A stretch of 38,543 bases of DNA from Bifidobacterium breve. Its GTDB lineage: Bacteria > Actinomycetota > Thermoleophilia > Miltoncostaeales > Miltoncostaeaceae. Below the pieces are notes generated by a model. It ran no database searches and was not told where the DNA came from. It saw nothing but the letters and a program-made list of their open reading frames with translations. Every line of letters begins with the position of its first letter. Positions within the stretch are counted from its first letter, which is position 1. Shown piece by piece: positions 3,645 to 25,812 of the stretch. The stretch covers positions 1-38,543 of the forward strand of contig CAMCDF010000002.1 in NCBI GenBank assembly GCA_945873475.1, read 5' to 3'. The translations under genes were made by a program, and so were the position numbers.

Positions 3645-4724
3645 CTACACGTTGAAGCGGATCTGCATGACATCGCCTTCCTGCACGATGTAGTCCTTGC
3701 CCTCCATGCGGGCCAGCGCCACGTCGCGGGCCTTCGAGAACGATCCGCACTCCACCAGCTTGTCCCAGGCCACGACCTCGGCGCGGATGAACCCGCGCTC
3801 CATGTCGGAGTGGATCTTGCCGGCGGCCTTGTCGGCGGGGGTGCCGCGGGGGATGGGCCAGGCGCGGGCCTCGGGCGGACCCGACCCGGTGAAGAAGGTG
3901 ATGAGGTCGAGCAGGCGGTATCCGGCCTGGATCACGGCGTCGGCGCCACGCGTGCTGCCGAGGCCCATCTCCTCGGCGAACTCCGCCGCCTCGTCCGGGT
4001 CCATCTCGGCCAACTCCAGCTCCACGCCCACGGGAAGGGCCAGCGCCTGCGCGCCCTGCTCGGCCGCGTATTCGGCGATCTCCACCGGCGGGTCGCCGGG
4101 GTCGTCGGTGTTCACCAGGTACAGCACGGGCTTGGCGGTGAGCAGCCCCATGGCCCTGCCCACGGCGATGGCGTCGTCGTCGGCCATGGTGCGCACGGGC
4201 AGGCCGCTCTCCAACTGGGCCGTGATGGCCTCGAGCGCCGCGGCCTCGGCCTTGGCGTCGGCGTCGCCGGCGCGCACGCCCTTCTGCACCTTCTCCATGC
4301 GGCGCTCCACCTGGCCGGCATCGGCGAGCATGAGCTCGTCGTCCACGGCCCTGGCGTCTGCCAGCGGGTCGACCTCGCGCTCGAGGGGGTGCGGTACCTC
4401 GGCGTTGGCGAAGCCCCGCAGCACGTGCACAGTGGCCTCGAGCTCACGGATGCGCCCGAGGGCCGCGCCGCCCAGCCCCTCGCCCTGACCCGCGCCCTCG
4501 CTGAGGCCGGCGATGTCCACCACCTCGACCTGGGCCTGCACGCGATTGGGAATGTCCTGCGCATCGGCGATGGCGTCGATGCGCGGGTCGGGCACTCCGG
4601 CCACTCCCACGTTGGGATCGCGGGTGGTGAACGGGTACGCGGCCACCTCCGCGCTTCCCCCGGTGACGAGGTTGAAGAGTGCGGTCTTGCCGGAGTTGGT
4701 GAGGCCTACGAGCCCGAGTTGCAG
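3645..4724 (-). CDS. ychF: Obg-like GTPase/ATPase YchF (apparent CTG start)
   Basis: Reading upstream of the listed ORF gives LQLGLVGLTNSGKTALFNLVTGGSAEVAAYPFTTRDPNVGVAGVPDPR (P-loop), ending in a TGS domain (GKDYIVQEGDVMQIRFNV). Only CTG 4722-4724 is available before in-frame TAA 4755-4757. Confidence 0.9.
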   Translation of the reverse strand: MQLGLVGLTNSGKTALFNLVTGGSAEVAAYPFTTRDPNVGVAGVPDPRIDAIADAQDIPNRVQAQVEVVDIAGLSEGAGQGEGLGGAALGRIRELEATVHVLRGFANAEVPHPLEREVDPLADARAVDDELMLADAGQVERRMEKVQKGVRAGDADAKAEAAALEAITAQLESGLPVRTMADDDAIAVGRAMGLLTAKPVLYLVNTDDPGDPPVEIAEYAAEQGAQALALPVGVELELAEMDPDEAAEFAEEMGLGSTRGADAVIQAGYRLLDLITFFTGSGPPEARAWPIPRGTPADKAAGKIHSDMERGFIRAEVVAWDKLVECGSFSKARDVALARMEGKDYIVQEGDVMQIRFNV

Positions 4725-16195: not shown

Positions 16196-16612
16196 GTGAG
16201 GTTGCCGTCCGCGCTGGCGCACCAGATCATCGAGCACGCACGCGCCGAGTTCCCCAACGAGTGCTGCGGCCTCATCGCCGGCAGTGGAGACCTCGCCACC
16301 CGGGTGCTGCCCACCACCAACGCCGAGGGCACCCCGTTCATGTACGTCATGGACCCGCGCGAGCAGATGGAGCTGATGGACGCCATCGAGGACGCCGGCG
16401 AGGACCTCGTGGCCATCTACCACTCGCACACCCGGTCGGCGGCCTACCCGTCGAAGACCGACGTCGAGCTGGCGTTCTTCGCCGAGCCGCTCTACGTGAT
16501 CGTGTCGCTGCAGGACGCCGACCAGCCGGTGATCCGCGCCTTCCGCCTGGCGCGGTCGGCGCCGGAGGGCGAGCAGATCACCGAGGAGCCGATCACGGCT
16601 CCCGACGCGTGA
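16196..16612 (+). CDS. mec: JAMM/MPN metalloprotease, Mec-like CysO-cysteine peptidase
   Basis: FPNECCGLIAG and JAMM motif YHSHTRSAAYPSKTD; last gene of the cysO-cysM cluster. Confidence 0.88.
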   Translation: MRLPSALAHQIIEHARAEFPNECCGLIAGSGDLATRVLPTTNAEGTPFMYVMDPREQMELMDAIEDAGEDLVAIYHSHTRSAAYPSKTDVELAFFAEPLYVIVSLQDADQPVIRAFRLARSAPEGEQITEEPITAPDA

Positions 16613-16985
16613 CCGTGCCCACCCGGTCGAGGGCCCGGTCGAACGACAGCACCTCGCCCACGCCCGTGGCCTCGGCCTGGGCGGCCAGGTATGCATCGGC
16701 GAAGGCGAGCCTCTCCCGCTCGTAGATCGTCAGGGCGCGCAGCAGCACCGGCGTGTCCACCGTCCGTATGCCCGGGTGCGCCAGTGCCGCGCGCATCAAT
16801 TGCGCAACGCGGCCCCGCGGCACCTCGTACACCGACGCCAGCACGTACACGCACTCGGCGAGGACCAGGTCGCAGAGCAGCAGTGGCTCGCCCGATGCCA
16901 GGGCCGCGGTTGCCCGGGCCGCCATGTCGGGCGGGTCGCCCGTGAGGTGCCGGATGATGACGTTGGTGTCGACGAACGCGGTCAG
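16593..16985 (-). CDS. PIN-domain toxin (VapC-like), apparent CTG start
   Basis: Extended N-terminus reads (CTG)TAFVDTNVIIRHLTGDPPDMAARATAAL; C-terminal ERERLAFADAYLAAQAE and LSFDRALDRVG. CTGA overlap with the antitoxin stop; in-frame TGA 16998-17000 leaves only CTG. Confidence 0.85.
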   Translation of the reverse strand: MTAFVDTNVIIRHLTGDPPDMAARATAALASGEPLLLCDLVLAECVYVLASVYEVPRGRVAQLMRAALAHPGIRTVDTPVLLRALTIYERERLAFADAYLAAQAEATGVGEVLSFDRALDRVGTVTRREP

Positions 16986-17224
16986 GCGTCTCCCCGGTCA
17001 CGGTATGCGCGCTTGAGCACGTCGGCCCATGCCATTCCGCGCACCGCCGGGGGCACGGCCACGCATCCCGCCATCGCGATGAAGTCATCCGACCGCGCGA
17101 TGGTCGCGTGTGATCCCTCGACCCGGAACAGCACGGCGTCACCCTGCTCGAGGTTCAGCGCATCGCGCACCGGCTTGGGGATCGTCACCTGCCCCTTCGA
17201 CGTGACTCGTGCATGGATGTCCAC
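16982..17224 (-). CDS. AbrB/SpoVT-type antitoxin
   Basis: VDIHARVTSKGQVTIPKPVRDALNLEQGDAVLFRVEG; GTG 17224 preceded by AAGGAGG. Confidence 0.88.
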   Translation of the reverse strand: MDIHARVTSKGQVTIPKPVRDALNLEQGDAVLFRVEGSHATIARSDDFIAMAGCVAVPPAVRGMAWADVLKRAYRDRGDA

Positions 17225-22899: not shown

Positions 22900-24344
22900 G
22901 AGATCGGCGGTACCTGACCCACCAGAAGGGCCGAGAACGCCACGATCACCAGCGTGATGGTCACTTCCACCCATGCCTGGCGGCGCACCAGCGCCAGGGT
23001 GGCGGTGTTCGGCGTGGCCCCGCCGCGCCTGATGGCGGCCACGATGCGCCGCGACCTCAGGGCCAGTACCGACGCCACGGCGAGCAGACCGATCTTCACG
23101 AGGATCGTCCAGCCGTAGGAGGTCTGCCAGAGGTCCTCGGGCGACGACAGCTGCCCCACGGCCCTGATGACGCCGGACACCACCAGCAGCGCGACGGCGA
23201 TCACGGCAAGCGCCGAGAATCGTGCAAGGGCGAGCCCCGCCACCAGCCTGCCACCCGCGCCGGCCACCTTCGGCAGGCGCAGCAGGTGCACGGCGACGAT
23301 GGCCAGGCAGCCCACCCAGGCAGCGGCCATGGCGGCGTGGAGGGCGTCCACCGGCACCTGCAGTCCCGGCATCGAGGTGGTCGATGCGTGGCCCTGTGCC
23401 GATATGGACCCCAGTGCCACGAGCGCGGGCACCAGCATCACCAGCATGGGCACCCGCCCGCCGTCGGCATCGCGCGGCGCCGGCGCGGCGTCGCTGCGGT
23501 ACTCGACCAGGAACCGCCACACGCCGAGCGCGAACAGCACGAACAGGGCGAGGGTGCGCACCTGCAGCAGGTCGCCGAAGCGGGTATCGGCGAGCACGCG
23601 CACGATGCCTGCCGGGTCGGCCAGCGCCCCCCATACGGATGTGCCGAGCGACCCCGCGGTCTTCACCACCAGCACGGTCGCCTCGCCGACCAGCGCGACC
23701 AGCGCCAGCGCCCCGAACCCGACCCACCAGGCATCGCGGCCCCATGCGAGGGTGCTGTCGCGCTCGCCCGCGGGAATGCGGGGAGGGGGAGACCACGCCG
23801 CACGCCAGATGAGCAACCGGAACACGATGAGGGCCAGCAGCCCTCCTATGCCCACCAGTTCGACCCACCGTGCGGTCACCGCCCAGGCCGATGTCTCGGT
23901 GGGGCCCGATCCACCACCGGGCCCGCCCAGGTACGGCGGGGTGATCGGCACGTCGCCCACGGCGAACACGCTGGCGCCGGGGATGATGTGGCCATCGGCC
24001 GACACCACCCGCCAGCGCACCGTGTAGGTGCCGGACGGCAGCCTCGGCGCCACGGGTACCTCGGCCACCGATGCGTCGGCGGCCAGCACGCGCCCGCCGC
24101 CGCTGGATGCCGGCTGCCCGCCCGATCCCACCACGGTCAGGTCCTCTGGCCGCAGCAGCTGCACGGCCTCCGAGAACCTGATGGTCACCCGGGGCGGGCC
24201 CGACGTCAGCCGCTGGCCGTCTGCCGGCGTGATCTGCTCGACCACCGCATGGGCGCTGGCGCGCGGCGCCATCACCATGACGCCCGCCAGCACGACCGCG
24301 ACGGCGATGAGGATCTGCGTGAATGCCTGGCCGGGGAATCGCAT
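22896..24344 (-). CDS. CopC-CopD fusion protein
   Basis: Signal peptide then AHAVVEQITPADGQRL...VTIRFSEAVQ...YTVRWRVVSADGHIIPGASVFAVG; multi-TM CopD-like C-terminus. Confidence 0.88.
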   Translation of the reverse strand: MRFPGQAFTQILIAVAVVLAGVMVMAPRASAHAVVEQITPADGQRLTSGPPRVTIRFSEAVQLLRPEDLTVVGSGGQPASSGGGRVLAADASVAEVPVAPRLPSGTYTVRWRVVSADGHIIPGASVFAVGDVPITPPYLGGPGGGSGPTETSAWAVTARWVELVGIGGLLALIVFRLLIWRAAWSPPPRIPAGERDSTLAWGRDAWWVGFGALALVALVGEATVLVVKTAGSLGTSVWGALADPAGIVRVLADTRFGDLLQVRTLALFVLFALGVWRFLVEYRSDAAPAPRDADGGRVPMLVMLVPALVALGSISAQGHASTTSMPGLQVPVDALHAAMAAAWVGCLAIVAVHLLRLPKVAGAGGRLVAGLALARFSALAVIAVALLVVSGVIRAVGQLSSPEDLWQTSYGWTILVKIGLLAVASVLALRSRRIVAAIRRGGATPNTATLALVRRQAWVEVTITLVIVAFSALLVGQVPPIS

Positions 24345-24348
24345 GGCT

Positions 24349-24366
24349 CCGCAGGCTAGCCTGCGG
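24349..24366. promoter_or_regulatory. 18-bp perfect palindrome in the divergent copCD/fabI intergenic region, carrying TAGCCT on both strands
   Basis: CCGCAGGCTAGCCTGCGG is its own reverse complement. Confidence 0.5.
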
Positions 24367-24394
24367 CGGTCAGCCGGAGAACGTGGGGGATGCA

Positions 24395-25177
24395 GTGAGC
24401 GGGATCGTCGCGGGCAAGCGTGCCCTGGTGGTGGGCGTGGCCAACAAGCGCAGCATCGCGTGGGCGATTGCCCGTCGCCTCGATGAGGAGGGCGCGCGGG
24501 TTGCGCTGACCTTCCAGGGCGACCGGGTCGAGAAGGACGTCCGCAAGCTGGCGGATGAGCTGACCAACGGCCCTGTGCCCGTGCTTCCGCTGGATGTCAC
24601 AGACGACGACCAGCTTGATGCCGCGGTCGCCGGCACCGCGGAGGCCCTCGGGGGAATCGACATCCTCGTGCACGCCGTGGCCTTCGGGAAGGTGGAGGAC
24701 CTCGGCGGACGCTTCATGGAGGTGTCCGACGACGGCTTCCAGCTGGCCCTCGACATCTCGTCGTGGTCGCTCAAGCGCCTGGCCCAGCGCGTGGAGCCGC
24801 ACATGCGCGATGCCGGCGGTGGCTCCATCATCACCATGAGCTACGTGGCCGCCGAGCGTGCGGTGCCCGGCTACAACGTGATGGGCATCGCGAAGTCGGC
24901 CCTCGAGTCGATCGTGCGCTACCTCGCCTGGGACATGGGCCCCGACAACGTGCGGGTCAACGCCGTGTCGGCGGGGCCGGTGCGCACCCTCGCCGCCCGG
25001 GGAATCCCCGGGTTCGGCGACATGGTGGACAACGCCGTGGAGCGGTCGCCGCTCAGGCGTCCCATCGACGCCGATGAGGTGGCCGACGCCGCCCTGTTCC
25101 TGTGCTCCGACCTCGCGCGCGCCGTCACCGGCGAGACCCTGCACGTGGACGCCGGCTACCACGCCATGGCCATCTGA
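24395..25177 (+). CDS. fabI: enoyl-[acyl-carrier-protein] reductase FabI
   Basis: VVGVANKRSIAWAIARRLDEEGARVALTFQGD, SYVAAERAVPGYNVMGIAKSALES, VNAVSAGPVRTLAARGIPGF. Confidence 0.94.
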   Translation: MSGIVAGKRALVVGVANKRSIAWAIARRLDEEGARVALTFQGDRVEKDVRKLADELTNGPVPVLPLDVTDDDQLDAAVAGTAEALGGIDILVHAVAFGKVEDLGGRFMEVSDDGFQLALDISSWSLKRLAQRVEPHMRDAGGGSIITMSYVAAERAVPGYNVMGIAKSALESIVRYLAWDMGPDNVRVNAVSAGPVRTLAARGIPGFGDMVDNAVERSPLRRPIDADEVADAALFLCSDLARAVTGETLHVDAGYHAMAI

Positions 25178-25812
25178 GCAGCACCATCCGCATCGGCGTG
25201 GTCGCCGACACCCATGTGGGGGAGGTGCTGCCCGAGCTGCCGGCGTCCGTGCCGGCGGCCCTCGCGGGCTGCGACCTCATCCTCCACGCCGGGGACATCA
25301 CCTGCATGTCGGTGCTCGACCAGCTGGGCGAGATCGCCCCGGTGGTGGCCGTGCAGGGCGACCACGACCGGCTTGCCGGAATCGACCTGCCGCGTGAGCG
25401 CATCGTCACCGTGCGCGGCCGGCGCATCGGCCTGGTGCACGGCCGCCGCTCGCGGGCCATCGAGATGCCGGCAGCCGGGATGAGCCTCGCCCGCAGGCGC
25501 GCGGTGCTGCTGGGCCTGCACCGCCACATGCGCAGGCGTCTGGGCCCTGTGGACCTCATCGTGCACGGACACCTGCACATGCCGGTGGATACCCAGGTGC
25601 GTGGCACACGGGTGTTCTCGCCGGGCGCGGTGTACATCCCCGAGGAGCGCGACGCGGGCGAGCGCACGGGCGTGAAGGGGCGTGCCTATCTGAGGTTTCG
25701 CGAGACCATGACGGACGACGATCGCGCCAGCGCCGTGGGCGTGGTGCAGGTTGGCCCTGGCGGCATGTCGGTCGAGCGGATACTGCTCCGTGATGTCCGG
25801 ACCCCCGGCTAA
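25174..25812 (+). CDS. YfcE/MJ0936-type metallophosphoesterase, apparent CTG start
   Basis: (CTG)SSTIRIGVVADTHVGE...LILHAGDITCMSVLDQL...VQGDHDR...IVHGHLHMPV...FSPGAVYIPEE. CTGA overlap with fabI stop. Confidence 0.85.
   Translation: MSSTIRIGVVADTHVGEVLPELPASVPAALAGCDLILHAGDITCMSVLDQLGEIAPVVAVQGDHDRLAGIDLPRERIVTVRGRRIGLVHGRRSRAIEMPAAGMSLARRRAVLLGLHRHMRRRLGPVDLIVHGHLHMPVDTQVRGTRVFSPGAVYIPEERDAGERTGVKGRAYLRFRETMTDDDRASAVGVVQVGPGGMSVERILLRDVRTPG

Follow-up and report, generated by a model that had tools for sequence, protein, structure and literature searches.

Termination-reinitiation coupling that works without a Shine-Dalgarno sequence of the downstream gene has been documented for UAAUG and AUGA junctions, as in the coat-lysis pair of phage GA (PMC9955659; for a survey of ATGA/TAATG junctions see PMC10666635). 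The gene pair described here shares with these systems a four-base overlap and apparently no need for a Shine-Dalgarno sequence, but its downstream gene appears to start with CTG instead of ATG, and the coupling is read from the sequence. Initiation at CUG is rare in bacteria. It is reported to reach 0.86% of the activity of AUG in E. coli, and 0.024% is the reported share of CUG among bacterial starts (PMC11497404). When annotated genomes were surveyed, AUG-to-CUG switches made up 2 of 61,358 (PMC5622118). Such survey numbers are biased by gene prediction, as Prodigal considers only ATG, GTG and TTG (PMC2848648), and the warning of the first-pass annotation that callers of this kind would misplace CTG starts is thus well founded. 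In the lineage studied here we recovered the order ATG > GTG > TTG > CTG known from E. coli and other bacteria, and here, too, the initiator tRNA presumably reads CTG despite a mismatch at the first position. The lineage differs in that CTG is fixed throughout a genus in ychF and across seven genera in the ribosomal protein gene rplJ.

The window, i.e. the whole analysed stretch of 38,543 nucleotides from an uncultured actinobacterium, contains the pair and the codons to be considered as follows:

24323..25177, plus strand: fabI-type enoyl-ACP reductase ORF (PF13561, E=6e-87), upstream gene of the pair, with the stop codon TGA at 25175-25177
25174..25812, plus strand: YfcE-like metallophosphoesterase of 212 codons, counted from CTG, and a stop codon, assigned by profile matches and by a coding score that sets in at 25174
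25174..25177, plus strand: CTGA, in which the putative phosphoesterase start CTG overlaps the stop codon of fabI, proposed from sequence, conservation and coding score
25186..25188, plus strand: ATC, rival start aligned with the Met of the family profile (GTC or GTG in other species)
25198..25200 (+24), plus strand: GTG, rival start that falls within the first beta strand and is missing from species G038
25102..25104 (-72), plus strand: GTG, rival start inside fabI

Positions 25160-25220 read ...CACGCCATGGCCATCTGAGCAGCACCATCCGCATCGGCGTGGTCGCCGACACCCAT, and the CTG with its four-base CTGA overlap is present at 25174-25177 as first described. FabI ends in HAMAI followed by TGA, and the base preceding this TGA is a C, so that CTGA joins fabI to the phosphoesterase frame. 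The true start of fabI is probably GTG 24395, judging from family profiles that begin near residue 26 of the ORF. CTG 25174-25176 opens (L/M)SSTIRIGVVADTH in a frame running to 25812, and no Shine-Dalgarno sequence was seen upstream of it. Both protein assignments hold: the phosphoesterase scores 74.1 bits against TIGR00040 (curated cutoff 56.25) and resembles YfcE-type metallophosphoesterases (TIGR00040, PF12850) in exceeding the curated cutoffs and in its DxH, HAGD and GHxH motifs. It differs from them by its unusual start codon and by GDHD (window 25345-25375) in place of the GNHD of most calcineurin-like enzymes; VPS29-type proteins share the Asp at this position. Our comparisons make it very probable that translation of the phosphoesterase begins at CTG 25174, overlapping the end of fabI.

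Judged from aligned sequences, CTG starts are independently real in this lineage, and the comparisons of rplJ and ychF are decisive. The N-terminus of rplJ (L10) was searched in 42 family genomes with a pattern that left the first base free. All 28 matched genomes, which come from seven genera and include the window's own (G000:C52:2618-2646), have C as this base, behind GAGGTGA; genera g2, g4, g9, g11 and g12 gave no match. The spacing of GAGGTGA differs in G010 and G011, and an upstream in-frame GTG is present in G011 and G012. Outside this family, the pattern found mostly ATG in the rest of the class, with GTG in G158 and G227 and TTG in G061 and G129; a match in G228 that contains a stop was ignored. 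The gene ychF lies in the window together with a third candidate, both named in the first-pass annotation:

3645..4724, minus strand: ychF, putative CTG start at 4724-4722, a single base beyond the stop of the upstream gene (TGA-G-CTG)
16593..16985, minus strand: PIN-domain (VapC-like) toxin, putative CTG start at 16985-16983 in a CTGA overlap with the antitoxin gene, GGGGAG just upstream
16982..17224, minus strand: AbrB/MazE-type antitoxin gene, upstream of the toxin gene and overlapping it by CTGA

No ATG, GTG or TTG precedes the P-loop of the window's YchF. Its start is CTG in 13 of 13 pattern-matched genomes of the genus, as opposed to GTG (three) or ATG (one) in four matched genomes of the sister genus g2 and GTG (eight) or ATG (two) in ten genomes of family f2; named public metagenome-assembled genomes, several of them labelled Thermoleophilia, are concordant. 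The CTG start proposed for ychF is therefore borne out, and the toxin likewise has no ATG, GTG or TTG before its active-site motif. No reciprocal best match of the toxin was found in the examined part of the close relative G028. The statement that all three candidates lie at stop/start junctions is correct for the CTGA overlap of the toxin, but ychF is separated from the preceding stop by one base and has no such overlap.

Further CTG cases common to the window's genome (G000) and G028 were named by eye from their sequences. They comprise dnaJ, with a Shine-Dalgarno sequence in both genomes and CTG in six genomes of the genus, as well as maf and the genes for an epimerase, a decarboxylase, a MarC-like protein and a small protein that follows GGAAG. 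Two orthologous pairs exchange ATG for CTG at the aligned start (G000_C15_9/G028_C1_262 and rarA, G000_C2_11/G028_C7_35), and lysS, ftsH and ribBA of G028 have no ordinary start near the N-terminus. A likely CTG start of an ispE-like gene, LRLAAPAKLNLRLLVGPA, was also met at a CTGA junction in the control genus G019 (L230-L234, piece b, ~80336), which suggests that CTG starts are not confined to the genus of the window.

Other unusual starts were encountered along the way. In both genomes adk (L181, G000:C14, ~17750; G028:C4) has an apparent ATA start that overlaps, as ATAG, the TAG with which the gene before it (probably secY) ends. The gene for IF1, infA (L222, G000:C35:7308-7541; G028:C2:145202-145423), has no ATG, GTG or TTG near its N-terminus; G000 and G028 share a single near-cognate codon, ACG, which follows AGGA(G) at a distance of 5-6 bases. 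Possible ATT/ATT and ATC/ATC starts with a Shine-Dalgarno sequence in both genomes, and an exchange of ATG and ATA at an aligned start, were seen at G000:C7:13855-14724, G000_C34_3/G028_C1_373 and G000:C19:4475-4852.

Three candidates within 38.5 kb and several conserved cases could indicate that CTG serves this organism as a regular initiator where genes are coupled, as the first-pass annotation had suggested. We consider this very improbable on the basis of a scan of junctions in 1.46 Mb of G028 and in 0.75 of the 1.66 Mb of G000, which found a depletion of CTGA and no excess, the outcome that the annotation itself had named as refuting. Where NTG at a stop is out of frame with the next gene, the base before TGA is C in 77% (G028) and 82% (G000) of cases. 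Among in-frame NTGA junctions near coding onset (G028/G000) we counted ATGA 112/64, GTGA 127/66, TTGA 7/3 and CTGA 79/48, so that CTGA contributes 24% and 27%, a three-fold depletion relative to other TGA stops (Fisher P below 1e-15). Moreover, an ordinary start lies within eight codons of most in-frame CTGAs (67/79 in G028 and 38/48 in G000, i.e. 79-85%, mostly as CTGATG), compared with 45% of the ATGA plus GTGA junctions. CTGA junctions that have no other ordinary start show a small surplus over control registers (22/127 versus 18/201, P=0.02). Their share among CTGA junctions is similar in the control genus G019 (5/19). The best conserved CTG starts, rplJ and ychF, also speak against regular use at coupled junctions, as they are not stop-overlapping CTGA junctions.

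Start use per opportunity, set to 1 for ATG, was 0.24 for GTG, 0.03 for TTG and 0.008 for CTG, which puts CTG at about 0.8% of ATG; these figures are rough because the CTG class holds false positives at about the control rate. An expectation-maximisation fit over start codons (485 orthologue pairs, flat prior, 61 codons) gave ATG > GTG > CTG, with 4% for CTG, which is an upper bound since the fit also assigned 2-3% to each of ATC, AAG, TAC and CTC. The fit to a single genome from flat priors was dropped, as it could not separate start codons from merely coding-like codons. A count by coding score of genes that have no ordinary start was unspecific (2.8-3.2% in the genus versus 2.5% in G019) and was replaced by orthologue comparison; in a strict cross-genus comparison such genes numbered 2/88 (G000) and 0/151 (G028) versus 0/149 and 0/92 in the control, with few genes shared. 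We estimate that CTG starts about 1% of genes. The codon is thus a genuine start in this lineage, though a rare and occasional one that GC-rich sequence around stops favours.

Orthologues of the phosphoesterase were found in 41 of the 42 genomes of the family, and CTG is kept in all ten species of the genus that have the same arrangement with fabI, the window's own included. This invariance is weak evidence when taken alone: the last codon of fabI is ATC in 10/10 species, and the resulting Ile-stop (ATCTGA) partly holds CTG in place and could conserve it for fabI alone, so that other evidence is needed. Such evidence comes from G038, in which an in-frame stop at -42 is followed by no ATG, GTG or TTG until +42, beyond the catalytic DTH metal motif; neither rival GTG is therefore usable in this species. 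Codons 5-7 (R I G), located between CTG and the first internal GTG, show only synonymous changes among the ten species, which indicates that translation begins upstream of +15. In other genera of the family a GTG occupies the codon aligned to CTG (L020, L024, L029, L032), and four sister species that have lost the overlap (L013-L016) have a GTG one codon upstream. A gene caller based on codon usage and blind to start codons placed the coding onset exactly at 25174, and a two-genome start model gave CTG/CTG a posterior of 0.86. From these comparisons CTG is the sole plausible start common to all ten species, in agreement with the initial proposal.

A start at ATC 25186 would give MRIGVVADTH and match the family profile exactly in length; position 2 of the Pfam and TIGR00040 profiles aligns with the Arg after this codon, and ATC, ATA and ATT resemble rare starts elsewhere in the genome. 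However, ATC is found in only 3/10 species, whereas 5/10 have GTC, a codon that cannot be used as a start, and 2/10 have GTG (+12), a possible start in these species. We therefore regard initiation at ATC as very improbable. The two GTG codons that had been named as alternatives both exist and are formally possible starts in G000, yet each is even less probable. GTG 25198, in GVVADTH, is the first ordinary start codon past the fabI stop in the window's genome and would yield a short N-terminus, but it would delete most of the first beta strand, it has no Shine-Dalgarno sequence, and the synonymous constraint on R-I-G at +15 to +23 opposes it; besides, this codon is not GTG in 2/10 species, and both V codons are non-GTG in G038. 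GTG 25102 within fabI, an ordinary start codon usable in 9/10 species that would add an Arg-rich extension, is just as improbable, since it is there as part of a fabI codon that is conserved, the in-frame stop of G038 separates it from the phosphoesterase gene, and this frame shows no coding score before 25174. BLAST searches with N-terminally extended frames were discarded because the conserved overlapping upstream gene gave false extensions.

For the CTG start at 25174, which has no Shine-Dalgarno sequence of its own, the most probable reading is that ribosomes finishing fabI would reinitiate within the four-base overlap and that the ordinary initiator tRNA would insert formyl-Met at this codon. 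In this genome of 71% GC most genes terminated by TGA end in C-TGA, and CTGA junctions thus arise often. Selection would mostly exchange CTGA for ATGA or GTGA, or make use of an adjacent ATG, and CTG would be tolerated in some genes, presumably where modest expression suffices or a strong Shine-Dalgarno sequence compensates. Stop composition does not explain rplJ and ychF, neither of which is a stop-overlapping CTGA, and rplJ has a full Shine-Dalgarno sequence. Alternatively, the family might have relaxed its discrimination against CUG (perhaps also against AUA, AUU, AUC and ACG) through a changed ribosome or factor, which would let near-cognate codons start core genes (rplJ, dnaJ, ychF and lysS among them) at useful levels; we consider this unlikely. 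Inspection of the initiator tRNA and IF3, recommended together with the CTG hypothesis, found both to look ordinary: the tRNA (L162:4606-4679) retains CGGG-CTCATAA-CCCG with the GGG/CCC anticodon stem, and IF3 is 46% identical to that of E. coli over 166 residues, with no gross change seen. Two patterns for G1338/A1339 of 16S rRNA gave 0 matches in 42 genomes and may not fit the family.

Callers that admit three start codons can systematically misplace the starts of conserved proteins where the genome is GC-rich. Core-gene CTG starts that are fixed in this lineage, as opposed to ATG, GTG or TTG at the same position in its relatives, offer clean comparisons made by nature for asking why CUG is used so rarely. 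The CTG start of rplJ, a ribosomal protein gene, across seven genera is the most interesting by-product of this analysis.
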